A stretch of 60,621 nt of DNA from a virus. Below the pieces are notes generated by a model. That model searched no databases and had not been told where the DNA came from. It saw nothing but the letters and a program-made list of their open reading frames with translations. The stretch covers positions 1 to 60,621 of the IMG/VR virus record IMGVR_UViG_3300029985_000047; one strand, written 5' to 3'. This document shows, piece after piece, positions 3,185 to 43,168 of the stretch (positions are counted from its first letter, which is position 1; every line of letters begins with the position of its first letter). Made by a program: the position numbers and the translations under genes.

Positions 3185-4372
3185 GTGAACATTCTAAGTG
3201 AAAAGGTAGTTGCCTTTGGCGAGCATGATGAGAACACTCGCCAGCAGATTCTCACAGCGGCGCAGGACAAGCGTGTAGTTCGCGCTGCACTTATGCCTGA
3301 TGGGCACTACGGCTACAATGTGCCCATCGGAGGAGTGCTCGCCTACAAAGACGCTATCAGTCCTTCTGGAGTTGGGTTTGATATTGCCTGCGGCAATAAG
3401 GCAGTACGGCTTGATGTGCACGGGTTCGAAACACGCCCGCATATTGCTGCCATTATGGATGAGGTATTCAAGGTCATCAGCTTTGGTGTAGGCCGCAAGA
3501 ATAATGAGAAAGTTGATGCGGCGGTGCTGGACAAGAGCGGCCTGGGGTGGTATCTCGAGTCTACAAAGCCACTTTATGACAAAGCAGCTGCGCAACTTGG
3601 AACAGTGGGCTCAGGCAATCATTATGTGGATATATTCACCGATGAAGCTGACCGTGTTTGGATCGGTGTACACTTTGGCTCGCGTGGATTTGGGCATGGT
3701 ATTGCCACTTGGTTTCTGAAAGCTGCAGGTGCAAGTCAAGATATGGCCGCAGCACCATGCGTACTCGACATCAACAGCGATCTTGGCCAGCAGTACATTC
3801 ATGCTATGAGTCTTGCTGGGCAGTATGCCTATGCTGGGCGTGATTGGGTGTGTGAACGTGTGGCCAAGATTATTGGCGGTAAAGTACTAGAGAGTATCCA
3901 CAACCACCACAACTATGCATGGCTTGAAGAGCACAATGGCGAAGACTTGTGGGTCGTGCGCAAGGGTGCCACACCGGCATATCCTGGGCAGAAGTGCTTT
4001 GTTGGTGGATCACTTGGTGAGCAGTCTGTGATACTTGCGGGCATTGAAAGCACGGAGTCTAGCCTGACGCTCAGTTCGACTGTCCATGGTGCGGGCCGGG
4101 CAATGGGCCGCAAAGAGGCCACTGGTACGTTCGACCGTAAGACCGGAGAATGTAAGCGTCCTGGCAAGGTTACCCAAGAGATGCTGCAAGGCTGGGTAGA
4201 CCGCTCAGGCATTGAGTTGCGGGGAGCAGGCCTGGACGAGAGCACTGACTGCTATAAGCGGCTCGACAGTGTACTAGGCTACGTGTCCAACCAAGTGCGT
4301 ATTTTGCATAGACTGACTCCCATTGGTGTGGCCATGGCTGGAAAAGACACTTTTGACCCGTACAAGGACTGA
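3185..4372 (+). CDS. rtcB: RtcB-type 3'-phosphate RNA ligase
   Basis: A 395-residue protein with the RtcB signature blocks in order: MPDGHYGYNVPIGGV (from residue 37), GVGFDIACGN with the Mn-binding Asp/Cys (about 63-71), GTVGSGNHYVDIF (about 139), VHFGSRGFGHG (about 162), HNHHNYAW and VRKGATPAYPGQ (mid), and STVHGAGRAMGRKEA (about 300). RtcB joins 2',3'-cyclic-phosphate ends to 5'-OH ends using GTP and Mn. In phages it can heal tRNAs cut by host anticodon nucleases. Length fits compact RtcB forms. The GTG start is the only one before residue 37 that keeps the full fold. It is apparently expressed from a leaderless message. Confidence 0.9.
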   Translation: MNILSEKVVAFGEHDENTRQQILTAAQDKRVVRAALMPDGHYGYNVPIGGVLAYKDAISPSGVGFDIACGNKAVRLDVHGFETRPHIAAIMDEVFKVISFGVGRKNNEKVDAAVLDKSGLGWYLESTKPLYDKAAAQLGTVGSGNHYVDIFTDEADRVWIGVHFGSRGFGHGIATWFLKAAGASQDMAAAPCVLDINSDLGQQYIHAMSLAGQYAYAGRDWVCERVAKIIGGKVLESIHNHHNYAWLEEHNGEDLWVVRKGATPAYPGQKCFVGGSLGEQSVILAGIESTESSLTLSSTVHGAGRAMGRKEATGTFDRKTGECKRPGKVTQEMLQGWVDRSGIELRGAGLDESTDCYKRLDSVLGYVSNQVRILHRLTPIGVAMAGKDTFDPYKD

Positions 4373-6909: not shown

Positions 6910-7325
6910 ATGACCCTTACCTGTATCAAGAACTGTGTTTTAACCGCTTGCTAGCTGAGTATCGCCTGCATAAGCGGCTGATCGTGGCGGTAGACTTTGA
7001 CGATACCGTGTTTGACTTTCACAAGGCTGGATACCAGTATGAAGCCGTACTGCGGTTGCTGCGTCGTTGCACGGCCCTGGGTTTCTACATCACGCTCTTT
7101 ACTTGCAGTGACCCATCAGAGTATGCCAGGCAAATAGCCTACTTGCTTGATTATGGCGTGCTGGTGACGAGCGTGAATGAGAACCCAGTCCAACTGCCAT
7201 TTGGCAATCATGGCAAGCCGTACTACAACATTCTGTTGGATGACCGCGCTGGATTGTGCGCCGCCTATCAAACCCTGGAGAGCGTAGCGACCCAGGCCGA
7301 AGCAGACAAGGAGCACGTCGAATGA
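6906..7325 (+). CDS. HAD-superfamily phosphatase-like protein
   Basis: A 139-residue protein. Motif I is VAVDFDDTVFD at about residue 30 (DxDxT/V type), motif II is the LFTCS segment, and motif IV is ILLDDRAG near residue 112. It is a small cap-less HAD form. Substrate unknown; it sits between the PRPP-synthetase-like and NAMPT-like genes with 4-nt overlaps on both sides, so a role in the same nucleotide/NAD pathway is a fair inference. Confidence 0.7.
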   Translation: MNDPYLYQELCFNRLLAEYRLHKRLIVAVDFDDTVFDFHKAGYQYEAVLRLLRRCTALGFYITLFTCSDPSEYARQIAYLLDYGVLVTSVNENPVQLPFGNHGKPYYNILLDDRAGLCAAYQTLESVATQAEADKEHVE

Positions 7326-8797
7326 ACATCTTTATGCCGCATGCAAAAGACTTCTACAAGAGTGGGCACGTCTTTCAGTATCCTAAAGGAACAGAGTACG
7401 TTTACAGCAATTGGACCTGCCGCAGTGATAAGTGGGCCAGCGTACTACCGGACTTCGCGCATAAGGTGGTGTTCTTCGGCTTGCAGGGAGTTTGCCAGTG
7501 GATGCTGATCGACGATTGGAACACTAGCTTCTTCAGCCAGCCACTTAAGGAAGTAGTAAACAAGTATCGACGTCGTATGGATAAAGCTCTTGGCACTGGC
7601 CGAGTGACCGTAGACCATATCGCTGCGCTTCACGTCTTGGGCTATTTACCTGTGCGCATCAAGGCATTGCCGGAGGGTAGCCGGGTAGATACCCGCGTGC
7701 CAATGTGGACAATCGTCAATACTTTGCCCGAGTTCTTTTGGGTCACCAACTTCTTGGAGACCCAGCTGAGTGCTGAGCTCTGGTTGCCGCTAACCAGTGC
7801 TACTACGGCGTACGAATATCGGCGCTTGTTTGATAAGTACGCCGAGCTTACCGGGGCCGTCAAGGCATTTGTGCCGTGGCAGGGACACGACTTCAGTATG
7901 CGTGGTATGACTGGTATCACTAGCGCGACACAGTCTGGTGCCGCACATTTGCTCAGTTTCACAGGCACAGATACTATCACTGCCATTGACTACTTGGAAG
8001 ACTACTACCACGGAGAGGCGACATTCGTAGGCGGCAGTGTACCTGCCACAGAGCACTCAGTAATGTGCATGGGAGGCGCGGCAGACGAGTTGGAGACATA
8101 CCGACGGCTCATTACTGAGGTCTATCCAGATGGTGTAGTCAGCATCGTCAGTGATACATGGGACTTTTGGCGCGTGCTTACTATCACGCTTAGAAAGCTA
8201 AAGGCGGAGATACTGGAGCGTGACGGCAAAGTGGTTATCAGACCAGATTCAGGTGACCCAGTCAAGATTATCTGTGGTGATCAAGATGCAAAGCCAGGCA
8301 CACCAGAGTACAAAGGCGCTGTACAATGTCTCTGGGAGATTTTTGGCGGTACAGTAACCCACAAGTGCTACGATACACTGGACTCTCACATTGGGCTGAT
8401 CTACGGCGACAGTATAAGTCTTGAACGTGCTCAGGAGATTCTCGCGCGTTTAGAGGCGAAGGGTTTTTCTAGTGATAATATCGTATTCGGTATTGGAAGC
8501 TACACTTACCAACATGTAACGCGCGATACGTTCGGAACGGCTATCAAAGCGACCTGGGGCGCAGTGAACGGAGAACCACGTGAGTTGTTCAAAGATCCTA
8601 AGACTGACAATGGTGTAAAGAAGTCTTTGTGCGGCCTCATTCGTGTAGAATATGAGGATGGACACTATATGGCATATGACCGTCAGGCTCCAGACCAAGA
8701 GCAGGGCGGCCTGCTAGAGCCGGTATTTGAAGACGGCCTACTAGTTAGAAGCCAGTCTTTGCAGGAGATTCGTATGAGGCTACATAGTGCTGGGTAA
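7322..8797 (+). CDS. nadV: Nicotinamide phosphoribosyltransferase-like enzyme (NAMPT / possible Namat)
   Basis: A 491-residue type II phosphoribosyltransferase. It shows the NAMPT layout: DFYKSGHVFQYPKGTEYVYSN cut here to its core at residues 9-28, FFGLQGVCQW, the HDFSMRGMTG stretch, GTDTITAIDY, VPATEHSVMC, SDTWDFWRV and RPDSGDPV. NAMPT makes NMN from nicotinamide and PRPP. In NARP1, the homologous Namat joins nicotinamide to ADPR-PP and gives NAD+ directly. No NMN adenylyltransferase is visible in the window, which slightly favours NARP1. ATG 7322 overlaps the HAD stop; an in-frame upstream extension is inside the HAD gene. Confidence 0.85.
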   Translation: MNIFMPHAKDFYKSGHVFQYPKGTEYVYSNWTCRSDKWASVLPDFAHKVVFFGLQGVCQWMLIDDWNTSFFSQPLKEVVNKYRRRMDKALGTGRVTVDHIAALHVLGYLPVRIKALPEGSRVDTRVPMWTIVNTLPEFFWVTNFLETQLSAELWLPLTSATTAYEYRRLFDKYAELTGAVKAFVPWQGHDFSMRGMTGITSATQSGAAHLLSFTGTDTITAIDYLEDYYHGEATFVGGSVPATEHSVMCMGGAADELETYRRLITEVYPDGVVSIVSDTWDFWRVLTITLRKLKAEILERDGKVVIRPDSGDPVKIICGDQDAKPGTPEYKGAVQCLWEIFGGTVTHKCYDTLDSHIGLIYGDSISLERAQEILARLEAKGFSSDNIVFGIGSYTYQHVTRDTFGTAIKATWGAVNGEPRELFKDPKTDNGVKKSLCGLIRVEYEDGHYMAYDRQAPDQEQGGLLEPVFEDGLLVRSQSLQEIRMRLHSAG

Positions 8798-8993
8798 TGA
8801 AGTTCCTTGCGCTACGCGCGCAGTGACCATAGTAGAGATGACGCCGTGTGCTGAGGCTGAACTGCGTCCGGCTAAATCTCATCGGATGCTTTGCGATGCT
8901 CACGCTAGCAAGTTAGTAGAAGAAGATGGCGACTGGGTGCGCGGGCAAAAGCTACCACTTACTACAACCATACTTTGTCAGTGGGGAAGGTGA
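8787..8993 (+). CDS. Small Cys-containing unknown protein
   Basis: A 68-residue protein with GTG start and GAGG 7 nt upstream, overlapping the NAMPT-like gene by 11 nt. Cysteines at VPCATR, TPCAE and MLCDAH, with the following His, could form a treble-clef or ribbon metal site. No family recognised. Confidence 0.45.
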   Translation: MLGNEVPCATRAVTIVEMTPCAEAELRPAKSHRMLCDAHASKLVEEDGDWVRGQKLPLTTTILCQWGR

Positions 8994-8994
8994 T

Positions 8995-9240
8995 ATGATC
9001 ACGCAGCAAGTAGAGTGTGATATTTGTAAAGCTTTAAAGAAAGAAGTAAACCACTGGTATGTAGTGTGCCCTGTTGGTTCTAGTGTCCGATTACATACAT
9101 GGAGCTCGGCGGATACTATGGGACTGCTGCGAAAGCCTCGTGTAATACACTGCTGTGGCCAGGCGTGTTTGCACAAAGCGTTAGATCAGTGGGTAAACAG
9201 GAAAGCGGAGGTAGTAGATGTTTTTGAAGAAAAAGCGTAG
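8995..9240 (+). CDS. Zinc-ribbon-like small protein
   Basis: An 81-residue protein starting at ATG 8995 behind GGAAGG. It has CDIC near the N-terminus, a central NHWYVV segment, and HCCGQACLHKALD near the C-terminus. This CxxC ... CGQxCxHK arrangement is common in short phage and actinobacterial unknowns and predicts one zinc site. Function unknown. Confidence 0.55.
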   Translation: MITQQVECDICKALKKEVNHWYVVCPVGSSVRLHTWSSADTMGLLRKPRVIHCCGQACLHKALDQWVNRKAEVVDVFEEKA

Positions 9241-9409
9241 TATGCGCATTTACACAATCAGTTTTACAGACAGCAATGACGCAGTTAATCATGCTGCCGA
9301 AGATGTCATGCTAGGTAAAGAGTGGACACTTTTACTAGTCGGTAAGAGAACAGTAGCTGCTATACGCACAGATACAATCGATACAGTTCTTTCGGAGCCT
9401 GTTGACTAA
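9218..9409 (+). CDS. Small unknown protein, 63 residues
   Basis: ATG 9218 follows GGAGG (9207-9211) by 6 nt and overlaps the preceding gene by 23 nt; a later ATG (9242) has no SD. Basic N-terminus, then a likely alpha/beta fold. Its TAA shares one base with the next ATG (TAATG). Confidence 0.5.
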   Translation: MFLKKKRSMRIYTISFTDSNDAVNHAAEDVMLGKEWTLLLVGKRTVAAIRTDTIDTVLSEPVD

Positions 9410-9729
9410 TGACACCCTATGCAGTTATGCTTGTAAAGCCGAATGATGGAGATGTGGCTATTAGAAAACGGTTTCAGATGCAGAGTAAGAAGCAGCATCC
9501 AGATCGTGACGGGGCTAATGGCCAACCAGGGTCGGAGTGGTTTAGTTTGGCAGCAGCTTATAGCCAGATAAAAACAGAAGGTCTACGTACTGCTTGGGCC
9601 GCCAAGAACAACCTACTAAGTAGGCTATGCAAGCCGTGCAGTGGTCTTGGTGTGCGTGGAACACGCATTGGTGGTGGCAAGATTATAGTCTGCGATAAGT
9701 GTAACGGCGAAGGGCGGTTAGTAAAGTGA
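9409..9729 (+). CDS. J-domain protein with DnaJ-type zinc finger
   Basis: A 106-residue protein. The N-terminal half is a J-domain (PYAVMLVKPNDGDVAIRKRF, then KQHPDRDG with HPD), and the C-terminal half has two CxxCxGxG elements, CKPCSGLGV and CDKCNGEGR, as in the DnaJ cysteine-rich domain. Such a protein could recruit host DnaK to phage replication or assembly. It is the full-length counterpart of the 56-residue gene at 470-640. Confidence 0.75.
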   Translation: MTPYAVMLVKPNDGDVAIRKRFQMQSKKQHPDRDGANGQPGSEWFSLAAAYSQIKTEGLRTAWAAKNNLLSRLCKPCSGLGVRGTRIGGGKIIVCDKCNGEGRLVK

Positions 9730-23497: not shown

Positions 23498-23743
23498 ATG
23501 CGAACCTTTGAAGTTGAAGACGCTGTAGTACCAATGCTTGCACTTGCAGTAGCTATGGCTGTTCATGAACGACGGCTTGTTGCAATGGAGAATGTTGATT
23601 CTTCTAGTCTAGCTTCTCAGCAGGTTCGCAGAGAGATTGCTCAGTTAGAGGACTTTCTCTCGAAGCTGAATGCGCCATTACCGGCTTTGCACACCTTATT
23701 GGCGCAAGAAGAGCAACGGGCCGTTAGCTCAATTGGTCAGTAG
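23498..23743 (+). CDS. Unknown protein whose 3' end overlaps a tRNA
   Basis: An 81-residue protein starting ATG 23498. N-terminal hydrophobic helix (VVPMLALAVAMAV) and a charged second helix (QVRREIAQLEDFLSKL). The last 26 nt lie in the 5' half of tRNA-Met, so one transcript cannot yield both an intact mRNA and the tRNA without processing. Function unknown. Confidence 0.5.
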   Translation: MRTFEVEDAVVPMLALAVAMAVHERRLVAMENVDSSSLASQQVRREIAQLEDFLSKLNAPLPALHTLLAQEEQRAVSSIGQ

Positions 23744-23795
23744 CACACGACTCATAATCGTTAGGCTGCAGGTTCAAGTCCTGCACGGCCCACCA
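23718..23795 (+). tRNA. tRNA with CAU anticodon (Met-elongator or Ile2)
   Basis: A 78-nt cloverleaf. Acceptor GGGCCGT (23718-23724) pairs perfectly with ACGGCCC (23785-23791); T-arm GCAGG-TTCAAGT-CCTGC; anticodon loop CTCATAA with CAT; encoded ACCA end (23792-23795). The G1-C72 pair rules out a bacterial initiator. Position 37 region and D-arm do not settle Met versus lysidine-modified Ile2. The D-stem has only three pairs and the top anticodon-stem pair is C-U, so it is slightly degenerate. It is the only tRNA seen in the window. Confidence 0.88.
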
Positions 23796-31485: not shown

Positions 31486-32166
31486 TTAGAACAGCGATGG
31501 CGTAACGTGACTATGGATCCACAATACTACAGCGCTTACTACGCCTAGCTTAGTCAGCTTCTTTTTGTCAGGATGCAGCAGCTCGTGCTCTTTCTGCTGC
31601 CCCTCAGCAAGCATCTTATCGCCACTAGTGCTCATGCCGTTCAGGTGGCTTACAAGCTGTATTATTTGTTGGTCTGACACACGGTCGTCTATATGGTGGA
31701 GAATGGCTGTGCTTGCATCTAGCATTGGTGCTACCGTATCTAGTGTAGTATCTACCTTGCTAATAGTGCCTTGTGCCAACTGCATTGTATTGTGCACGTC
31801 ATTAAACAGTACAAGCTCTTGTGCATCTAAGGCTGTAAGGTTCTTGTCTTCATGTCTCGCAGCGACCTCCACAGCTCCTACAGTGCCTCGTACAGTAGCC
31901 AAGGTACGATTGACATCAGCCAGTGTTCCGCACGCCTTATGGGGCACGCAAGGCGCATTAATGGCCGCTAAAGTTGCAACCAGTTGGTCTGCTACGCTTG
32001 CAAACTTATCGGTAAGCACCTGGCTGTCAGTAGCAACCTGCACTGTAAGCTTACCAGACTCCAGTCGCAAGTCATGACTAGCTAGGCCTACTTCCCAGAC
32101 AGCCCAACTTGCTATCAATACAAAAAGGACCCCCGCCGAAGCGAGGGCCCCTAGTATGTAGCGCAT
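31486..32166 (-). CDS. Membrane-anchored coiled-coil protein
   Basis: A 226-residue protein from ATG 32166: N-terminal membrane helix (ILGALASAGVLFVLIASWAVW), then about 170 residues of polar helix, and a second hydrophobic stretch at the C-terminus (LGVVSAVVLWIHSHV). Being last in the lysis end, it could be an inner-membrane spanin-like or lysis-regulating protein, but the order does not prove it. Contains a Cys pair (PCVPHKAC). Confidence 0.5.
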   Translation of the reverse strand: MRYILGALASAGVLFVLIASWAVWEVGLASHDLRLESGKLTVQVATDSQVLTDKFASVADQLVATLAAINAPCVPHKACGTLADVNRTLATVRGTVGAVEVAARHEDKNLTALDAQELVLFNDVHNTMQLAQGTISKVDTTLDTVAPMLDASTAILHHIDDRVSDQQIIQLVSHLNGMSTSGDKMLAEGQQKEHELLHPDKKKLTKLGVVSAVVLWIHSHVTPSLF

Positions 32167-32764: not shown

Positions 32765-32958
32765 TGCTGATCCGTAGGCTTGCTACTGCCGCGTACTGGC
32801 TGCAAAGCCCCGATACCCCCAGCAACAATGGTGCCGGCAATAGCAAGCGCAGACATAGCCACAGTATCTGGCAGTGGATGAAAGATGATTACACCTAGCA
32901 CTGTAAGCACCAGCAAGGCACCAACAATTACCAGGACAGTAGGCTCGTTTATTTTCAT
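32761..32958 (-). CDS. Holin-like protein
   Basis: A 65-residue protein from ATG 32958 (SD GGAGGAG). Two membrane helices (VLVIVGALLVLTVLGVIIF and AMSALAIAGTIVAGGIGAL) separated by a short HPLPDTV turn, with polar C-tail. Size, two-helix topology and position directly after the endolysin fit a class II holin that releases the endolysin. Confidence 0.65.
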   Translation of the reverse strand: MKINEPTVLVIVGALLVLTVLGVIIFHPLPDTVAMSALAIAGTIVAGGIGALQPVRGSSKPTDQQ

Positions 32959-33416
32959 ACGCTCCTCCAAATAGCTTGCTCAGCCTGACGGCGCTTGACT
33001 AGGCCAGGCTCGATGACTCCGCCAGCAAATATCCAGCCATGTTGGGCACCTTGCGAGTCAGTGTAGTAAAGCTGAGCGCATGCGGCGTCGAAGTTGCCTG
33101 CATTCACCAGCTGCATCAAGGACGACGCGACTACACGATGCACGCCGTTGTTATACGCCAAGGACACGAGAGCATCGAACACGCCCTGCTTCACTGGCGC
33201 CTTAAGCGCGTGGTTCACGCCCTCTACAGCGTCTTGGGTGTCGTCGGCTAGAAGCACAGTTGCTTGCCCATCTGTAACTCCGTTTGGAAAAGTATCGCCA
33301 GGCATTAGCTTGTGCCCGTAGCCGATAGTGGGCAGTCCGATTCCATCCTTGTACACATGGCTGCGAAAGCCTTCAAACTCCTTGATAAGAGCGAGGCCTT
33401 TTTCTGACAGGTTCAT
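32955..33416 (-). CDS. GH24 lysozyme (endolysin)
   Basis: A 153-residue T4-type lysozyme. Catalytic Glu in KEFEG (about residue 13), then TIGYGHKL with the family Gly-Tyr-Gly-His, Thr following, and the FDALVSLAYNNG helix, ending in RRQAEQAIW. Cleaves the MurNAc-GlcNAc bond of peptidoglycan. No signal or membrane anchor. Overlaps neighbours on both sides. Confidence 0.92.
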   Translation of the reverse strand: MNLSEKGLALIKEFEGFRSHVYKDGIGLPTIGYGHKLMPGDTFPNGVTDGQATVLLADDTQDAVEGVNHALKAPVKQGVFDALVSLAYNNGVHRVVASSLMQLVNAGNFDAACAQLYYTDSQGAQHGWIFAGGVIEPGLVKRRQAEQAIWRSV

Positions 33417-34158: not shown

Positions 34159-35910
34159 CTATTGCATCCCCGTCATTTTGTACTGGCCCATCATGCTTAC
34201 GGTTGGGTATGTAGTTGTGCAAGATGCGCCGGGAGAATTAATGGCAAGTTTGATGGTGTGCCCAGCCGCAACCACATACGGAGTTGTGGAGATAACCTGA
34301 GAAGCAACCGAGTTCGAGATGGTTCCAATCGCGGTATACGATCCATTATCAATAACACCGACTGTGACAGCGGTACACCCGACAGCCTGCACGTTAAAGC
34401 CAACATCTATGCTGAGTATTGTGATGCTCGATGTTGGAGTAAATTGAAAAAATGCAGATTGGGTGCTGGTTGAGTTAGCTGTCGGTGATCCTCCCCAAAG
34501 TGCTAGTCGGACGGGCGTACCAACAGACCCAAAATTGACATTCAATGGGCCGTCGATGGTAAAAGGCTCTACGGAATTTGTAGGTCCTTGTGTGTAGTAG
34601 TAGGCTGGCTCTATGTAGTTCCCCGATGTAGTAGCGTATCCTGTTACATCGTTCTTAACCGCCGGATTTCCTGCGGAGGCACTACACCGTGCATTCTCCA
34701 CGGTGATTCCCCTCAACTGACCCGATACGGTTTGACTCAGTTCTATACAAGGCTGGTTTGCAGAAGCTGTGTGGTAAGAAAAGTTTGGATTATAAAACGC
34801 GACGTTTGCGGCATCTTTAACAAGAATCTCCCCAGTAGTATTACCAGAAAAACCCTCAAATTGAGTCCCAAAAAAAGCGATATTGTACATCTTGTCACTG
34901 TTTCCGGACCCATTGACGTACAGTTCGTTATTACCCGATCCAGCGTGCTCTATCGCCCCTCCGAACCAGCTTACCGCGCTTATTTGACCCGTACCTGTGT
35001 AGTCGATAACTACAGGCTGCGCTCCGGTATTTCCTAATCCGTTCACCCATACGTTGTCAAAAGAAAGAAGGTTTAAGCCACCAACTGCGAATGCGTCCGA
35101 GCGAATATGAAGTCCGACAGATGAGGCGAACCCATAAATAAGATCGTAGCGGAGAGCAGATGGTACATACAGATTATCAAGATCTACGCATCCGTTGGTA
35201 GGAGAATAACCGTTGCAGTTTATGTTCCACCCTTGCACAAGGAAAAACTCTTGCCCTGTACTGTGTGAAAGATTTGTGAGTAGAGAAACAGGAGACCCAA
35301 CTTGAGCTGATACCAAGTTACATCCTCCCGCGGAAGACGCATTCCCGACCGAACCAAGACAAATCATGGAAGACCCGCTAGCAATCGTAACCCCTGAGTT
35401 GCCAGTAACCGTAATAGTAGTTCCAGTACTAGCGAGTAGCGTTACTGCTTGGGTAGGGGAGCCTATAGCCAAGGTGGTCAGCGTCTCTGTGTAGTTTGGG
35501 GGAGTCATGACGGTTCCCCCAGATGCCGGGAGGGCCACGATTGCAGATGCGATATTAGGATGCACAACACCATCTACGTAAACTGTAGAATTTATACTTG
35601 GCCCGCTAAGTGGCCCGCTAAGAGCACCCCCAGGACTCACGATGTTCGTAAAGGCCCCTGCTTGCGAGTTCGCCCCGGTTCCGCCACTCGATACCGGAAC
35701 CGGAGTCGTTGAGGCGATAGCGCCAGCCGCGACGGTGCCTGAGACGTTGAGGTTGCCGGTGATCGTGCAATTCCCGGGACCCGCGCCGCAGCCGTTGATG
35801 GTAGTGTTAGCGCCAATCTGCACCGAGCCTCCGCTGCCGATCTGCACCTGCGCGGTTAGGGATGTTGCTGCGATCAAAAGTAGAGCAAATGCGCAAATTC
35901 GAAGTTTCAT
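34159..35910 (-). CDS. Tailspike-like beta-helix protein with Sec signal peptide
   Basis: A 583-residue protein with SD AGGTGG. Residues 1-21 are a clear signal peptide (MKLRICAFALLLIAATSLTA, then Q). The body has a pectate-lyase-type right-handed beta-helix look: GTVMTPPNYTET, VTLLASTGTTITVTG, LYDLIYGF-type and repeated strands with Asn/Gly turns, and a jelly-roll-like end (SSITILSIDVGFNVQA). In a virion gene order this would be a receptor-binding or depolymerase tailspike, but an exported precursor is unusual. Catalytic residues not evident. Confidence 0.6.
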   Translation of the reverse strand: MKLRICAFALLLIAATSLTAQVQIGSGGSVQIGANTTINGCGAGPGNCTITGNLNVSGTVAAGAIASTTPVPVSSGGTGANSQAGAFTNIVSPGGALSGPLSGPSINSTVYVDGVVHPNIASAIVALPASGGTVMTPPNYTETLTTLAIGSPTQAVTLLASTGTTITVTGNSGVTIASGSSMICLGSVGNASSAGGCNLVSAQVGSPVSLLTNLSHSTGQEFFLVQGWNINCNGYSPTNGCVDLDNLYVPSALRYDLIYGFASSVGLHIRSDAFAVGGLNLLSFDNVWVNGLGNTGAQPVVIDYTGTGQISAVSWFGGAIEHAGSGNNELYVNGSGNSDKMYNIAFFGTQFEGFSGNTTGEILVKDAANVAFYNPNFSYHTASANQPCIELSQTVSGQLRGITVENARCSASAGNPAVKNDVTGYATTSGNYIEPAYYYTQGPTNSVEPFTIDGPLNVNFGSVGTPVRLALWGGSPTANSTSTQSAFFQFTPTSSITILSIDVGFNVQAVGCTAVTVGVIDNGSYTAIGTISNSVASQVISTTPYVVAAGHTIKLAINSPGASCTTTYPTVSMMGQYKMTGMQ

Positions 35911-35920
35911 TTTTCCACCT

Positions 35921-36847
35921 TTACTGATAAATGACTTGAATAGTAAGCGTTGAATTTACAACGATCCCCGCTCCAGTCGGATTGTAAATGGTAGCGTAAG
36001 GGCCTCCTAGCGCGGAGATGTATGCGTTGATGATCAACGGGGCATATGTGGCCGAATATCCCTGCCAAGTTGTAATTACAGCCGATGTAGATTGCCCCGT
36101 GGCGCTTCCGGCACATACTTCAGTACCGGCGGCCGGTATTGTTACCGAAATAGAGCAAGCGTAAAAGGCGGGGAATTGTGCTGAGACAAACGCTGTCGTA
36201 GCGACCTGTGTGTTGTTGGTGCCAGGCGATGCTGTCGGCGCTGTGGGCGTTCCGGTAAGCGCCGGCGAAGCCGTGAGCGCCAAAACAGTCCCCGCGCCAG
36301 ACGTGCTGTAACTCGTGCCCCATGCACTGCCCGTTGAATTCGGAACTCCTGCTCCTGGATACACCATTGATCCGGAAACTGTGCAAGTGCTTCCTAGTGC
36401 GCACGTCTGCCCGTTTACCGTAGTCGAGGGATTCGCTAGTGCGCTGTTCGGTATGGACGATGCCGCAACCGCAAGTGACGGCGCAGTGGTCGAGTTCGTC
36501 ACGGTCGGCACCAACCAGGCAGGCCACGAACCGGACGGCGCGGCGAAGGTGGTAACCGTTCCGCCTCCGGTTGAGCACCCAATGCTTGCGCAGGCGCTAG
36601 CCGCTGTCGTGGTGTCAAAGTTCCATGAGGCTGTCATGGTGCTGAGCGGACCGATATGCACCGAGTACGCAGGAGTGGGGCCTACCAAAAGTCCGCCTGA
36701 ACCGCTGCTAGAAATACCCGGTAGCATGAGATTAGTAGTAAGAAGAGGGCCGCCGATCTGTGCGTTAGGATTGATCTTGGTGGCCGTTTGTGCCCATCCC
36801 AAGGTGACACACATGAACAAAAGGCTAGCCGTGAAAGTACGTGACAT
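35921..36847 (-). CDS. Tail-fibre-like protein with Sec signal peptide
   Basis: A 308-residue protein from ATG 36847 (SD GGAG). Signal peptide SLLFMCVTLGWA, then Q. The mature N-terminus, INPNAQIGGPLLTTNLMLPG, is shared with the fibre at 40529-43168. It contains the fibre motif ALTGTPTAPTASPGTNNTQ followed by VATTAFV, common in tail fibres. Paralogue of that fibre. Two Cys pairs (CASIGC, CALGSTC) would suit an oxidising periplasm or exterior. Confidence 0.6.
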   Translation of the reverse strand: MSRTFTASLLFMCVTLGWAQTATKINPNAQIGGPLLTTNLMLPGISSSGSGGLLVGPTPAYSVHIGPLSTMTASWNFDTTTAASACASIGCSTGGGTVTTFAAPSGSWPAWLVPTVTNSTTAPSLAVAASSIPNSALANPSTTVNGQTCALGSTCTVSGSMVYPGAGVPNSTGSAWGTSYSTSGAGTVLALTASPALTGTPTAPTASPGTNNTQVATTAFVSAQFPAFYACSISVTIPAAGTEVCAGSATGQSTSAVITTWQGYSATYAPLIINAYISALGGPYATIYNPTGAGIVVNSTLTIQVIYQ

Positions 36848-37235
36848 AGATTTGATCTCCTACCACAGTGGGCGTGTTGAAATTGATGCTGTTCACTACT
36901 AGTCGATAATCGGCTGCTGGACCGGGAGTTTGAAACACGCCGTTCTTATACACGCCCAAAACTATAAGTGGGACGTGGCTGGTAATGTATGCTGATGTGG
37001 GAGCCGTGCCTGCGGGTGCCTCCGCGATGTAGGCATTCGCCAGCAGAGCCACAAAGTTAGATACGGCGAAATTACCCACCGTCAGGTTGGTAACCGATAG
37101 GCCGGGAATGGTGAAACTGCCACCGAAGATTAAGTCCAGCAGGCCCAGATCGTATTGAATGGGCACCTGCCAGTTGAATTGTCCATAGCCCGGGATCTGC
37201 AGGCCCACATTGGGTGTTACTGTCTCACTGGCCAT
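36825..37235 (-). CDS. Tail protein with NGVFQ beta-module
   Basis: A 136-residue protein sharing one base with the upstream stop (TAATG). N-terminal half (NVGLQIPGYGQFNWQVPIQY, LLDLIFGG) is a pattern seen in phage baseplate-attached proteins; the C-terminal half carries KNGVFQTPGPAADYRL ... GDQIYVTY, the same module found in the neck and DUF4054 proteins. Probably a virion protein at the fibre network. Confidence 0.5.
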   Translation of the reverse strand: MASETVTPNVGLQIPGYGQFNWQVPIQYDLGLLDLIFGGSFTIPGLSVTNLTVGNFAVSNFVALLANAYIAEAPAGTAPTSAYITSHVPLIVLGVYKNGVFQTPGPAADYRLVVNSINFNTPTVVGDQIYVTYFHG

Positions 37236-37804
37236 TAGCTCACCACCATGGGGCCGGTTGCATGCAGGGCCAGGTCAGACAGCACCATAAATGTCTGCTG
37301 ACTGTGCCCGGTGGCACCACCATCTACAGCGCCTAAGCCGTGTAGTGTATTAGTGAACGTCACAGAGTGGCCACCCACGCCATCCTGAGAAAATGCAAGC
37401 GTAATAGGTTGGTAGGCTACAATGCTTATTATCGTAATGGAGGTGTTGGCCGTCAGTACTATCTCCCAACCATTGGCGAGCGAGGCGTCCAGAATAATGG
37501 ACGGGCTGAATGGTGCATATGCCATAGCAGGCTTAATGTCTGCTGTAGTCAGCAGACAAGACAGCGCACCAGCCAGCACGGCTAGATTGCTGTCATTAGT
37601 ACTGAACCCTTTATTGGCTAACATCTGCATCAGTGCTGCCACACCTGTGGAAGTCTGATAGAACAGCTTGTTAGCACAGTTAGACGGGAAGATGGCCCCC
37701 ACACCTGCACCATTGGACCGGGTACTGTCCGCCGTGTACGCTGCGTCAGACTCTTGATTGGCCTGCGTAGGGTTGAATTGCTGAAAGTTTGTTGTGCCAG
37801 CCAT
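37235..37804 (-). CDS. Phage tail fibre N-terminal-type protein
   Basis: A 189-residue protein starting NFQQFNPTQANQESDAAYTA, with ANKLFYQTSTGVAALMQML and the LAGALSCLLTTADIKP helix, a pattern typical of phage tail proteins just after the DUF2612 baseplate gene. C-terminal beta domain (ITLAFSQDGVGGHSVTF). Likely links fibres to the baseplate or forms a short fibre. Confidence 0.6.
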   Translation of the reverse strand: MAGTTNFQQFNPTQANQESDAAYTADSTRSNGAGVGAIFPSNCANKLFYQTSTGVAALMQMLANKGFSTNDSNLAVLAGALSCLLTTADIKPAMAYAPFSPSIILDASLANGWEIVLTANTSITIISIVAYQPITLAFSQDGVGGHSVTFTNTLHGLGAVDGGATGHSQQTFMVLSDLALHATGPMVVS

Positions 37805-37807
37805 AGC

Positions 37808-38440
37808 CTAAACCCACTTTCCTGTATCAAAGCCTGCGATGAATACATTGTCGAGATCAAAGCCAAACATAGGCAGGGCTCCGAAGAGGTATGTGTACTG
37901 CACGCCTTCAGGTCTGGGAACTATGTAACCGTTCCTAATCAGGTCCTGCATGATGGAAGTAAACGTACCCGTCATGAAAATGTTGGCTGACATGTTTTGG
38001 TTGTCAGCAATGATGATGTTACCAGCCGGAAACAGCTGCTGCCATAGCGGGTACAGACTGTCTAAAGTGCCCGTCCATTGGTTCTGCGCAATCTTTGCTT
38101 TGATGAGAATACGAAACGTGGTGTCGTCCAACACTGGGCTGACGCCGCCGCTGGGCTGAAACCCAACTGTGCGGTACGCTTGTACTGTTTGTCCGAGCAT
38201 GTCAAGCTGTACGCCAGAGGCAGAGTCTAAATCAAAGGCGGTGTCCATCAGCATGATTACGTTCGTCACGTCATCAAACTTGCGTAACAGCACATACAGA
38301 AGCTTGTTTAGCTTCGGTGAATTGACATACTCACTGGACAGCAGCCCGATGTAGTATCCAAGTGGCAGGGCCTCAAGTGGTTGGTTGCCGTAGCCACCGA
38401 AGCCGAAACCACTAGTGCCAAAATAGGGATTAGTGCTCAT
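37808..38440 (-). CDS. Baseplate protein, DUF2612
   Basis: A 210-residue protein. ASGVQLDMLGQTV (mid) and a repeated hydrophobic strand pattern (FRILIKAKIAQNQWTGTLDS, IIIADNQNMSANI) match DUF2612, the family equivalent of tail protein I / gp48-like baseplate components. Overlaps gpJ by ATGA. Virion baseplate, connects wedge to fibres. Confidence 0.8.
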   Translation of the reverse strand: MSTNPYFGTSGFGFGGYGNQPLEALPLGYYIGLLSSEYVNSPKLNKLLYVLLRKFDDVTNVIMLMDTAFDLDSASGVQLDMLGQTVQAYRTVGFQPSGGVSPVLDDTTFRILIKAKIAQNQWTGTLDSLYPLWQQLFPAGNIIIADNQNMSANIFMTGTFTSIMQDLIRNGYIVPRPEGVQYTYLFGALPMFGFDLDNVFIAGFDTGKWV

Positions 38441-39669
38441 ACTGTAGTCACCACCACGTTAGCTGCCACACCTTGCGACACATTATAGTAATGCGCCATG
38501 GCCAGATCCACTGCGCCGGTCGGGCTAGCTGTGAGGCCCATAGTGAGAGCCTGCACACCAAAGGCAGGGCCTAGCAGGCTGGCATTCACAGCCATGGCCT
38601 CGTAATTGATGGCCGAGATAGCCACTGTCTCTCCAATGGCCAATGCGTTCAGGTAGTTGACGATGGCAGTCTGCACAGCAGCCACGACAGCTGTAGTAGG
38701 CGTACCAGTGTAACCGTGGATGCTTACACTGATATAGATGGGGACATACGTAGGCCTGAAGAAACTGATGTTCATGGTGAAACTAGTATTCGCATCGGTG
38801 ACCGTTACCGTAGTGGTTCCGTTGGTGAAGCAGCCTATACTCCGTGCACCATAGATGGCCTGCGCCACAGCGGCATCAGTGCCGTTCTCTACCACCATGC
38901 TGATAGAGTGTGCGGGATTGCCCCAGCTATCAGTAACGCCGGTAGGGTTCTCAATAGAGCTTCCTGGGCCACCTGGAGTTGGTACGCCAGGATTGACGCG
39001 TGTAACACCCGGCACGGCCAGACATGCGGCCACTGTAGAGGCCAGCGCAGTGACGGATGGTAAGGCCACACTGACGGCCTGCCGTGCACGGGCTTTGCTG
39101 TCTGTTTCAATAGGACTGCCTGGTACGGCTGCCGCTGCATTAGTCACAGTAAACCAGCCGTTAACAGGCGTGTTAATGATCGTAATGCTTCCCGCAGCTG
39201 CCGTTATGCTGCCCGGAGTTGTGCATGAAGCAGCAACGTTGATACTGCCGGTGATGGGTATGATCACAGTGGATGGAAGTACCCACAGATTACCGTTGAT
39301 GTCCTGAGCCGCACCACCTGTTACAGTGGTGGGCGTGATGGTAGAACCGCCCAGTGTCAGTACTGTGGTGGAGTATGTAAACGCGGCGCGCGCTAGCCCA
39401 TTCATCTTCAATTGACGGTCTAGCCCTGCACCCACCGCTGTAGCAGGCGAACTCTGGTTGTACACAAGCTGCAAACCAAGGTTACAGTCCGCGGCTTTCA
39501 GTGACAGGATTGAGAGCAGCTGATAGACAGCTGCATTAGGAGTGACGACTTGTGTAGGGCCGTAGATGTTCAAAAATGCCTGTAAGTTATCGGCCAGAAT
39601 GGACTGATATGAGGCTACTGTCAGTCCTGCAGGGCCTATAGAAGGAGGGGCGTATGCTGGCACTGACAT
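38437..39669 (-). CDS. Baseplate J-like (gp47/gpJ) wedge protein
   Basis: A 410-residue protein. The N-terminus (ILADNLQAFLNIYG, PNAAVYQLLSILSLKAAD), AGLDRQLKMNGLAR, and the middle SKARARQAVSVALPSV with PGVTRVNPG are the normal baseplate J layout; the end has a VQTAIVNYLNALAIGETV block. Wedge component of contractile tails. Start shares a base with the gp25 stop. Confidence 0.88.
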   Translation of the reverse strand: MSVPAYAPPSIGPAGLTVASYQSILADNLQAFLNIYGPTQVVTPNAAVYQLLSILSLKAADCNLGLQLVYNQSSPATAVGAGLDRQLKMNGLARAAFTYSTTVLTLGGSTITPTTVTGGAAQDINGNLWVLPSTVIIPITGSINVAASCTTPGSITAAAGSITIINTPVNGWFTVTNAAAAVPGSPIETDSKARARQAVSVALPSVTALASTVAACLAVPGVTRVNPGVPTPGGPGSSIENPTGVTDSWGNPAHSISMVVENGTDAAVAQAIYGARSIGCFTNGTTTVTVTDANTSFTMNISFFRPTYVPIYISVSIHGYTGTPTTAVVAAVQTAIVNYLNALAIGETVAISAINYEAMAVNASLLGPAFGVQALTMGLTASPTGAVDLAMAHYYNVSQGVAANVVVTTV

Positions 39670-40052
39670 TAGTTCCCCAGACTCGCCGAGTCACCCGGCG
39701 CACTAGAAACGGTTACCTGACCAAAGGTCGTAGTAAATGTGGCTGTAAAAGAAAACTGGCCGTTGGAGAATGACGATTGAATACCGGTGACAGATACAAC
39801 GTAGGGTGTAGCTAGAATGGTCTGCTGGATAATCAGTCGCACGGCATTCTGTGTCTTAGAACTCGCCAGCTGACCGAGCATGCTCTGGAACACAGGCACC
39901 CCCAAGTTGAGGTCTTCCCACCACTCGCCCAGAAACAGCTTGAGTCTGGTCAGCACATCTTGAGCCACCGCCTGCGAGTCTGCTAATGCGTAGGCGGGGT
40001 CAAAGATGGGGTCGTAACTAGCATCAAGCTGTAAGTACGTCACGCTGGGCAT
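39669..40052 (-). CDS. gp25/gpW-like baseplate wedge protein
   Basis: A 127-residue protein with DVLTRLKLFLGEWWEDLNLG and VPVFQSMLGQ followed by AVRLIIQQTILATPYVV, the normal gp25-like lysozyme-fold layout of phage and type VI baseplates. Acts at the sheath start. Confidence 0.85.
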   Translation of the reverse strand: MPSVTYLQLDASYDPIFDPAYALADSQAVAQDVLTRLKLFLGEWWEDLNLGVPVFQSMLGQLASSKTQNAVRLIIQQTILATPYVVSVTGIQSSFSNGQFSFTATFTTTFGQVTVSSAPGDSASLGN

Positions 40053-40064
40053 TATGGATGTCCT

Positions 40065-40514
40065 TTACCAAGTGTCATTGATGGCGCCGGGCAGGAATGT
40101 GCTGGCTGCAAAGCTGTCGGTAGCATTACGTAGTGCCGTTAGTGGTCCTGTGTACACCGTATTAGCATTGACTAGTCCTGCCCCTGCAAGCGTGCCCGAT
40201 GACACGCTATAGCCACCAGAAGTAATCCAGTATCCAGAAGTAAGATTAAGACATAGAACTAAGTTGGGCGCGCCCTGCAGCACGGTGAAGCCGGTATCCT
40301 GGGAGGCACTCTTTAGTACGGTTCCAAAGCTGTACGTCATACACGCGGTGTTGGCTGTCCAGTCATACATCTTACCTGTAGCTGTGGCATACGCCGCCGA
40401 GCCACCTGGAGCCACGGCACTCGCTGGCCCCGCGACTCCGTACGCAGTGGTTAGAGTGATTGAAGCGAAGGCCGTGGTGCCGACCAATAAAACAGCAATC
40501 GCGATCCACTTCAT
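40065..40514 (-). CDS. Secreted-type small protein in the tail operon
   Basis: A 149-residue protein from ATG 40514 (SD AGGAG). Residues 1-17 are a signal peptide (MKWIAIAVLLVGTTAFA), then SITLTTAYG. Mature chain is beta-rich with two Cys (TACMTY, LVLCLN) that could form a disulfide. Lies between the fibre and gp25 genes. Function unknown; possibly exported to the envelope, or a fibre partner. Confidence 0.5.
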   Translation of the reverse strand: MKWIAIAVLLVGTTAFASITLTTAYGVAGPASAVAPGGSAAYATATGKMYDWTANTACMTYSFGTVLKSASQDTGFTVLQGAPNLVLCLNLTSGYWITSGGYSVSSGTLAGAGLVNANTVYTGPLTALRNATDSFAASTFLPGAINDTW

Positions 40515-40528
40515 GTAGTTCTCCTTAG

Positions 40529-43168
40529 TTACGGAAGCCACGTGCACTCAGTTCCGGGCTCGATCAGAAGGGCGTCAGAAACATTGCTGGTCTGCCCATA
40601 CAGTGTCACTGTGTTTGCCGCTGCTGTAAAGCTGGCTGTTACGTAGATGTCGGTCACGTAGGCCGTCGCGGCCGCTCCGGGAGTCAGGAACGCCGTGGCG
40701 TCCGTTGTGGTGATCGTTGTGATGTCAGTAGTGCCTGTCCCGAATGGGACTGCCGTCGTTCCCACGTAACTGACCGAAGTCAGCGACATGTGCGTCGGCG
40801 CGACACTCGTGCCGACGCCAAACTTTACTGTGGCGACGCCTATGGCTTGCTCCCAAGAAACATGACACAGACCGCGATAGGTTCGCGCCGTGGTTGCGTA
40901 GGTGGCCGGGAAAGCTATTCCAGTCGTGGTGTACGTTGTTGTTGCAATAGAGGTCGCCGTGGTTCCGGTGAGTTGGTTTCCGTTCGTGGAGTATAGTGGT
41001 TCTGTGGTTACCATGACGGCTGTATTGTCGAGCAGACTAGAAGCTGCTGGCGTAGTTCCATTTATCCTAATTAGTGCGTTTGGTGTGATAGCAGCAGTAA
41101 CGCTGAGCGCAGTAGAAGAACTTCCATAGGTTATGCCGCCCGCCGAGGATGATACCGGAAAAGAGATAGCAGACCAGACAGGTGCTGCGGCGGTCTGGCC
41201 AAGCAAAGGACCGTTGTTGAGCGTCGGCGCGGCGTTGTGGTCCATAGTGGTGGTAGCGCTGAAGTACGGCACTGCCCACGCTACGCCGCCAGTCACCGTC
41301 TGCGGGAAGGTTATAGATCCGCCCGATATTGTGTTGCATCCCAAAGCGTGGGTAGTGGTGTTGTAGGTGAGAGCGTTGGTAGCGCCCGCGCAACCGTTAG
41401 TTCCTGTGGTGGGCATGGCCACGGCCGATGGGGCTGCTGTGGAGGCAGTGAAGTTTGCAACCACGGTGTCTGAGGCTTGAGTGGAAATGCCGGACAGAGG
41501 AATGGAGGCTGAGTAAGTGGCCTGCGCAGATCCGCCCGGCGAGAATACGTAGCCAGTTCCAGGCAGGATCGGAGAAGAGGCGAAAGTGAAGATTCCGGTC
41601 GCATCAAAGCCTCCGAAGTCTACCGACGGTAGGCCGCCCGCTGTCAAGTTGCCGTTGCCGAAGTGCAGCGTGTCGGATGCGCCACTGGCCAGCCAGCCCG
41701 CGCCCGTGGTGTACAGGATCTTAGTTCCATCGGTAGCATCCAGTGATGGCCCTACACCGTTAGCCTGCAGCAGACCGCCGCTGAACTGATGCGTTGTCCA
41801 TACGTTCTGCGTGGACAGTAGCGGTACGTTAGCGCCGCTGGTACCTATGTTCTGCGTGGATGCCGTACCAAGTCCACTGATCTGAGTGTTGGGAATGGTG
41901 GCAATGAAATTGGCTGGGATGGTGCTGCCTGAGCTATAGCTAGTTCCCCACGCGCTAGAACCGTTATAGTTCGGTATGCCAGCGCCACCCGCAGGCCAAG
42001 TCATTGATCCACCGGATCCGAGTGGTCCGGTAGTGGCCCCATTGATTCTGGCAAACACACCCGCCGTGGTAGTCCACAGGTCGCCATTAACAGGCGCTGT
42101 GGGAGCCGCGCCGTGTGGCAGATTGAACCCGGCAGTGCCGACGGCAGAGGCCAGTGTAATCACCTCGCCCGTGAACGTGCCGCCGCTCTTAGGCATCGCG
42201 CCAGTCACTCGCGTGTCGTTGCCTACGGTGGCGCTAGCTGCTGTGGTCCCGTACGTGACGGAGATAGCGCCGCTGGTGTTGGTGATGGTGGTTCCGTCCG
42301 GCTTTACAAGACCCAGCGTGCCTGCTGAAGCTATACCGGGAGGCGCGCCGCCGTCAGACAACAGAGTGCCGGAAGTATTATTCAACAGTGCGACGTGGCC
42401 TACAGTGGCCGCGCCCGGTCCAGTCACCGGATTGGTCAGCGTGGCTTGCTTGCCGTTCAACTGCGTCTGCACACTGCTGGTGGCGTCCATGAACGCCATG
42501 GTAGCAGGTGTGACACCGTCAACGGTCTTGTTAGTCAGCGTCTGCGTGTCAGTGGTGCCTATGATAGTACCAGCCGGAGCGGTTAGAGAAGTCCCCCACG
42601 TACTAGCGCCTGCGTACACTACGATACCAGCCGCAGCGGGCCACGTCATCGATCCGCCTGACGGCGCGTGGCACTGCGCGTCTTGTGGACTGAGTAACCA
42701 CGTGGCGGTGGTGCAGCCTGTAAGGCCCTGCAGCAGCGCGTTCACTTGAGCCGCTGTGGCTATGGTAGGTGCACCCGTGGCTGTGGTGTTGTACAGCACG
42801 CCCGTGGCCAGCCCGGACAGCAGCACACCGTTCAGGCCCTTGACCATGGTGGCCCCGCCGGAGCTAGTGCTTACAGCGTCGCCAGTAAGCGCCGTGAAGC
42901 TGCCACTGCCACTAGCGCACCCAGCGGTGGTCAGTGCGCCATTCAAGCCATTAGGGCAGATGGGCGAAGTGCTTTGCGGTATGCCGCTGACCAGCAGTCC
43001 ACCTGTAATAGCCACTCCATTAGCACCATCTGCAGCTACCCCAGGTAGCATTAAATTAGTAGACAGCAAAGGCCCGCCGATCTGATTATTGGGATCAATC
43101 TGCGTCGTAGCTTGCGCCAGAGCGCCTATGCACCCGCAGCAGAATAGAACAACAGCTAAAAATTTCAT
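40529..43168 (-). CDS. Long tail fibre with Sec signal peptide
   Basis: An 879-residue protein whose ATG (43168) shares a base with the spike stop, so the start is well fixed. Residues 1-19 are a signal peptide (MKFLAVVLFCCGCIGALA), then Q. Mature start IDPNNQIGGPLLSTNLMLPG. The shaft has fibre repeats: TQTLTNKTVDGVTPAT, TQLNGKQATL, repeated MTWPA.. strands and GTSY/GTSL elements. C-terminal beta domain with FLTPGAAATAYVTDIYVTAS. Clearly a tail-fibre type sequence, yet built as a secretory precursor. Confidence 0.72.
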   Translation of the reverse strand: MKFLAVVLFCCGCIGALAQATTQIDPNNQIGGPLLSTNLMLPGVAADGANGVAITGGLLVSGIPQSTSPICPNGLNGALTTAGCASGSGSFTALTGDAVSTSSGGATMVKGLNGVLLSGLATGVLYNTTATGAPTIATAAQVNALLQGLTGCTTATWLLSPQDAQCHAPSGGSMTWPAAAGIVVYAGASTWGTSLTAPAGTIIGTTDTQTLTNKTVDGVTPATMAFMDATSSVQTQLNGKQATLTNPVTGPGAATVGHVALLNNTSGTLLSDGGAPPGIASAGTLGLVKPDGTTITNTSGAISVTYGTTAASATVGNDTRVTGAMPKSGGTFTGEVITLASAVGTAGFNLPHGAAPTAPVNGDLWTTTAGVFARINGATTGPLGSGGSMTWPAGGAGIPNYNGSSAWGTSYSSGSTIPANFIATIPNTQISGLGTASTQNIGTSGANVPLLSTQNVWTTHQFSGGLLQANGVGPSLDATDGTKILYTTGAGWLASGASDTLHFGNGNLTAGGLPSVDFGGFDATGIFTFASSPILPGTGYVFSPGGSAQATYSASIPLSGISTQASDTVVANFTASTAAPSAVAMPTTGTNGCAGATNALTYNTTTHALGCNTISGGSITFPQTVTGGVAWAVPYFSATTTMDHNAAPTLNNGPLLGQTAAAPVWSAISFPVSSSAGGITYGSSSTALSVTAAITPNALIRINGTTPAASSLLDNTAVMVTTEPLYSTNGNQLTGTTATSIATTTYTTTGIAFPATYATTARTYRGLCHVSWEQAIGVATVKFGVGTSVAPTHMSLTSVSYVGTTAVPFGTGTTDITTITTTDATAFLTPGAAATAYVTDIYVTASFTAAANTVTLYGQTSNVSDALLIEPGTECTWLP

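Follow-up and report, generated by a model that had tools for sequence, protein, structure and literature searches.

Tail-fibre-type proteins of soil phages that begin with export signals and follow a separate signal-less anchor

Results

Four tail-operon genes begin with Sec signal peptides

The window analysed here is the whole 60,621-nucleotide stretch of the IMG/VR virus record IMGVR_UViG_3300029985_000047, which has no terminal repeats, and all tail genes described below lie on its minus strand. Four genes in this region begin with a charged n-region, a hydrophobic core, and an A-x-A cleavage site: g1 (34159–35910, 583 aa, cleavage SLTA-Q), g2 (35921–36847, 308 aa, LGWA-Q), g3 (40065–40514, 149 aa, TAFA-S), and g4 (40529–43168, 879 aa, GALA-Q). 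The signal peptide (SP) of g1 (residues 1–20; 35851–35910) is MKLRICAFALLLIAATSLTA, followed by Q; that of g2 (36791–36847) is MSRTFTASLLFMCVTLGWA, followed by Q; that of g3 is MKWIAIAVLLVGTTAFA, followed by S; and that of g4 (43115–43168) is MKFLAVVLFCCGCIGALA, followed by Q. The starts are well supported, as AGGTGG lies just before the ATG of g1, AGGAG (36857–36861), inside the 3' end of the upstream gene in codons of its conserved GD motif, precedes g2, which overlaps that gene by 23 nt, AAGGAG precedes g3, and g4 overlaps the upstream stop codon (TGATG). Thus, the original prediction, that four tail-operon genes carry SPs at starts fixed by ribosome-binding sites (RBSs) and stop/start overlaps, was correct as an observation.

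To test how strongly these starts resemble SPs, we used a simple score of our own, as SignalP was not run. Four exported Escherichia coli proteins used as positive controls (OmpA, MalE, Bla, and PhoA) scored 11.8–17.2, whereas g1, g3, and g4 scored 15.7–16.5, the best among the real genes of the window, and g2 scored 12.5. Shuffling of residues 2–45 reached the observed score in 30, 94, 1, and 2 of 5000 trials for g1, g2, g3, and g4, respectively. Taken alone, g2 is therefore the weakest case, but its homologues are strong. The sequence criteria for Sec-exported proteins are satisfied, although export and cleavage themselves were not measured. The mature chains contain 10, 6, 2, and 8 cysteines for g1, g2, g3, and g4, respectively, mostly in close pairs, and no TM-like segment; neither the even cysteine counts nor the absence of such segments had been part of the original prediction. 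Of twelve other structural proteins of the window that were counted, six have no cysteine and the rest have 2 to 5.

As had been predicted, the mature chains of g2 and g4 share an N-terminal block, I-x-PN-x-QIGGPLL-x-TNLMLPG (INPNAQIGGPLLTTNLMLPG in g2), which resembles the start of a wider block, Q-T-x-INPxxQINWPxITGxGxP, seen behind SPs in other phages. The g2 protein matches tail-fibre PHROGs over residues ~175–228, whereas g1, g3, and g4 gave no significant PHROG or Pfam hit, so sequence similarity alone leaves it undecided whether the four proteins as a group belong to known fibre families. A PDB sequence search with g1, which is probably tailspike-like with a β-helix as inferred from its sequence, was also negative, and a whole-protein scan with g4 found only near-identical contigs. 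The g3 protein is a small companion protein.

The position of these genes in the tail operon, after baseplate or anchor genes, is that expected of tail fibres or tailspikes. Directly upstream of g2 is a gene for an SP-less 136-aa protein without cysteines, which we call the anchor, or Ad (36825–37235). It is preceded by F (37235–37804), an SP-less 189-aa short fibre or linker homologous to the F genes of related contigs, a baseplate protein in the gpI position (37808–38440; phrog_587, phrog_4056), a gpJ-type baseplate wedge subunit (38437–39669), and a gp25/W-type baseplate wedge subunit (39669–40052). The g3 and g4 genes lie upstream of these, with g4 inserted in the baseplate operon and not next to an Ad-type anchor. 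Downstream of the fibre genes are an endolysin (32955–33416; phage lysozyme, PF00959) without an SP and, near it, a minus-strand gene (31486–32166) with an N-terminal TM segment, a long helical middle, and a hydrophobic C-terminus, which could encode a spanin-like or other lysis protein. Outside this region, an RtcB RNA ligase gene (3185–4372; PF01139) lies in the early region of the phage, and a tRNA-Met gene lies at 23718–23795.

The signal peptides are conserved in related viral contigs

To find relatives, we searched with the gpJ-type protein, which found 24 viral contigs, and with Ad, which found 50; neither query takes account of SPs. Related contigs are designated below by L numbers. 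In nearly every locus, Ad is followed directly by one to three fibre-sized genes with SPs (SP+), including proteins of 1586 aa in L030, at least 2354 aa in L034, 1505 and 937 aa in L016/L053, 749 and 1520 aa in L038, and 1115 aa in L023/L061. Most of these genes start at the same point, overlapping the end of Ad by about 20 nt, with a GGAG site and start codon that lie in the codons of the conserved GD..Y motif of Ad, so the SP start and the end of the anchor have been tied together for a long time. The loci come from one collection, and some share ancestry.

A mature N-terminal block of about 55 aa, with two cysteines invariant in 23 of 23 aligned copies, follows the SP. A search for other phages with this block, which had been named in advance as a check, found 38 loci, including some whose neighbouring genes point to other tail types: L093, after a 1365-aa tail-tip-type gene; L101, after a gene with an N-terminus like those of fibre/spike PHROGs; and L081, on a 231-kb contig. 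The block thus occurs across contractile-tailed and apparently other tail types. Homologues that start downstream of the hydrophobic segment had been specified beforehand as evidence against export, and we looked for them among block-bearing proteins; all of those examined carry an SP or SP-like start. Over all gene models, with repeats of the same contig included, the block follows an SP in 75 of 78. Of the remaining three, L077 is SP+ with the block further in, and L009/L043, which are one record, had a mis-called start, the true start of which scores 17.5. The median pairwise identity was 35% for the SPs and 57% for the block, yet all of the diverged sequences still score as SPs, indicating selection on SP function.

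The g1 gene, with an identical SP, also occurs in contigs with a different tail gene set, namely L104 (1479–3230; 98%) and L107 (6001–7758; 48% over the first 150 aa), suggesting recent exchange of a whole SP+ spike gene between phage types.

SP+ proteins are rich in cysteines, in even numbers

In a non-redundant set of complete genes of 200 aa or more, SP+ proteins contained 2.0 cysteines per 100 aa compared to 0.64 in SP-less (SP–) genes, a three-fold difference, and the cysteine count was even in 41 of 50 SP+ proteins (p = 5.6e-6) compared to 46 of 97 SP– proteins. This result is independent of the SP call and fits disulfides made outside the cytoplasm.

The anchor and the fibre body are encoded separately

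Ad consists of an N-terminal motif (TPNxGLQIPxxxQxNWQVP) and a C-terminal docking-type domain (NGxxQRPGxDYT...GDxVYAxY). We ran profiles for these two elements and for the block over all gene models, again with repeats of the same contig included. The C-terminal domain was found only on SP– proteins, and the block only on SP+ proteins. The N-terminal motif is SP– when followed by the C-terminal domain (53 models) but SP+ when fused directly to a fibre without that domain (L063–L068). In L068, an 805-aa SP+ protein (7302–9719) carries an internal copy of this motif (residues 236–276) and lies next to another SP+ protein that starts with it. Genes with the C-terminal domain are followed within 60 nt by an RBS-supported SP start in 33 of 49 cases, compared to 23 of 507 for other SP– genes; because the loci are related, the corresponding p-value (3e-26) is too optimistic. 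SP-less tail genes of L071 (5429–6589) and L072 (5447–6550) have three tandem copies of the docking-type domain upstream of several SP+ genes and may be a multi-fibre platform.

The C-terminal domain of Ad is like those near the N-terminus of single-chain fibres and tailspikes. It matches a K1 capsule depolymerase at residues 133–171 (E 0.006) and, weakly, a tail fibre gp47. The AF2 model of Ad is confident in this domain (pLDDT about 94) and resembles a KP1 baseplate-cup protein and the N-terminal part of CBA120 TSP4 (residues 1–335) at E values of about 0.01–0.03. In L101, the 250-aa SP-less anchor matches only residues 1–123 or so of single-chain fibre and spike PHROGs of 650–1084 aa, whose bodies run on for 500–900 aa, whereas the body in L101 is a separate SP+ gene. 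Thus, the usual single chain of anchor, docking-type domain, and body appears to be cut in two. A fold search with the block gave only non-significant matches, the best to collagen XV/XVIII trimerisation domains (E about 1.4) and to viral fibre or collagen-like proteins (E about 0.02–0.3), and these were not used as evidence.

Comparison with cultured phages and known systems

Five cultured phages with the same baseplate synteny (EKP1, Magia, Mulock, IFTN9, and SEN34) have SP-less fibres. Burkholderia gladioli phage BgManors32 (NC_070955) is an exception, as its gpJ-I-F synteny is like that of the window and is followed by a 651-aa protein, gp48, with a clear SP. This protein has an odd number of cysteines (7) and is preceded by a 76-aa gene that reads like a fibre-assembly protein rather than an Ad anchor; annotated chitinase and esterase/lipase genes (gp46 and gp42) lie close by. 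The last 100 residues of gp48 are 58% identical to the tail fibre of Burkholderia phages Bcep1 (gp51) and BcepNY3, of the Bcep781 group, which also has a clear SP, a mature chain that starts with Q, and an even number of cysteines (4). The Bcep1 fibre differs in its mature block (QFAPGQILTAAQLNAAF) and has no Ad-type anchor. Its GenBank record reads ‘possible tail fiber; possible signal peptide domain’, so SP-bearing fibres have been seen in annotation. We found no follow-up of that note and no paper on Sec-exported tail fibres in an open-licence collection, where absence of a description is not proof that none exists; papers on phiCbK, JG068, Hankyphage, and others that were checked do not describe the system.

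Single-chain T7-type fibres and the K1 depolymerase (PDB 9k4a) have the order virion anchor, docking-type domain, and body, but in one cytoplasmic chain without an SP. The N-terminal region of CBA120 TSP4, which serves as a platform for other spikes, resembles the C-terminal domain of Ad in fold, but no exported partner has been described. Lambda Lom is an SP+ protein encoded between tail-tip and fibre genes (PMC12309495), but it is an outer-membrane β-barrel and not fibre-like. The lengths of the SP+ proteins studied here, up to >2700 aa, and their fibre-like content argue against Lom-like outer-membrane morons, although barrel prediction was not run and the question is therefore left undecided.

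The host was not identified, as scans of genome contigs with the gpJ alignment and the block alignment confirmed nothing. The block was also not found in plasmids or in the cultured phages of INPHARED.

Discussion

The interpretation offered in the original prediction was partly supported. Sec targeting of tail-operon fibre-type proteins is strongly supported by conservation, cysteine content, and gene architecture. Of the roles proposed, fibres that attach after lysis in the periplasm fit the split between anchor and body best; surface display or receptor blocking without virion attachment is not excluded, and capture from host adhesins has no support, as the block was not found in the GTDB genomes, plasmids, and cultured phages searched.

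We favour a split-fibre system, with a probability of roughly 0.5. In this model, the SP-less anchor would be made in the cytoplasm and assembled onto the tail, whereas the distal receptor-binding fibre or tailspike body would be translated from a start codon that overlaps the end of the anchor gene, exported through Sec, cleaved after A-x-A, and folded and disulfide-bonded in the periplasm. When holin and endolysin open the cell, particles would meet the mature fibres, which would dock by their new N-terminal block onto the C-terminal domain of the anchor. The sequences themselves establish the SPs and their conservation, the paired and even cysteines, the division into anchor and body, the coupling of the two genes, and the mutually exclusive distribution of the domains; actual export, disulfide formation, docking, the timing of assembly, and presence in virions are our inferences. 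No virion proteomics exists for these phages, and no structure of the complex was obtained. Related phages also have an SP-less F gene, the C-terminal part of which can resemble a fibre tip (L009 and L010 compared to the SEN34 fibre), and Bcep1 and BgManors32 carry other SP-less fibre genes. SP+ proteins may therefore be additional fibres and need not be the only or main receptor-binding proteins. Also against the model are that g4 is not next to an Ad-type anchor, that docking of the block to the anchor is not shown, and that five cultured phages with the same baseplate synteny have SP-less fibres. The broader proposition, that a widespread group of soil phages finishes its virions outside the cytoplasm by a fibre-assembly route not described for tailed phages, is tentative and slightly less probable than not.

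The main alternative, which we consider less likely, is that these proteins are exported but never join the virion, and are instead fibre-like adhesins or depolymerases sent to the periplasm, surface, or medium during late infection, where they would act in superinfection exclusion or receptor masking or would digest extracellular polysaccharide around the host. The SPs and cysteines show only export, the SP-less F gene is present in the same operon, Bcep1 has extra SP-less fibres, and Lom provides a precedent for an exported protein encoded among tail genes. Moreover, one SP+ tail-operon gene (L038, 10630–15189) has a full GH10 (xylanase-type) domain plus chitobiase C-terminal (CHB_HEX_C)/Fn3-associated repeats, as might be expected of an exported plant-polymer or EPS enzyme; CHB_HEX_C also occurs in L087, and there was a weak GDSL match. 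Against this alternative are the strict pairing with a virion anchor that carries a docking-type domain, the sharing of the Ad motif between SP– anchors and SP+ fibres, the L101 split of a normally single-chain fibre, and the absence of any visible membrane anchor in the four window proteins.

Captured host adhesins, or moron genes unrelated to tails, are unlikely. The SPs are of ordinary bacterial type, but the block was not found in about 85,000 species genomes of GTDB, which were scanned with a degenerate pattern only, in plasmids, or in cultured phages, and it is present in many phage contigs, always at the tail-fibre position. It is also very unlikely that ribosomal frameshifting from the anchor into the overlapping SP+ frame makes a cytoplasmic anchor–fibre fusion for the virion while normal initiation makes an exported decoy. 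The overlap of about 20 nt and the +1 frame offset in most loci would permit such dual products, but the overlap is fully explained by the conserved GGAG site and start codon inside the GD..Y motif of the anchor, there is no conserved slippery sequence, only 4 codons are open upstream of the ATG in the window and in L041, and second SP+ fibres have their own starts. Chance hydrophobic starts or mis-called start codons are the least likely explanation, despite a home-made score and the modest case of g2, given conservation across dozens of divergent loci, RBSs at the SP starts, a bimodal score distribution, and cysteine parity.

Tail fibres are taken to fold and assemble in the cytoplasm, and an SP has been read as a sign that a protein is not phage-structural; one study took the lack of SPs in DGR target proteins as support for their phage origin (PMC6199706). 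If the SP+ proteins reach the virion, then host range in many soil phages depends on the Sec and disulfide machinery of the host, and receptor-binding proteins can be recognised by an SP and paired cysteines. If they do not, then the same phages, a large and mostly uncultured group, put large adhesins or depolymerases outside the infected cell before lysis, which is also undescribed as far as we found. In either case, the pattern gives a simple rule for annotating many unknown soil-phage genes, and cultured phages such as Bcep1 and BgManors32 make it testable.
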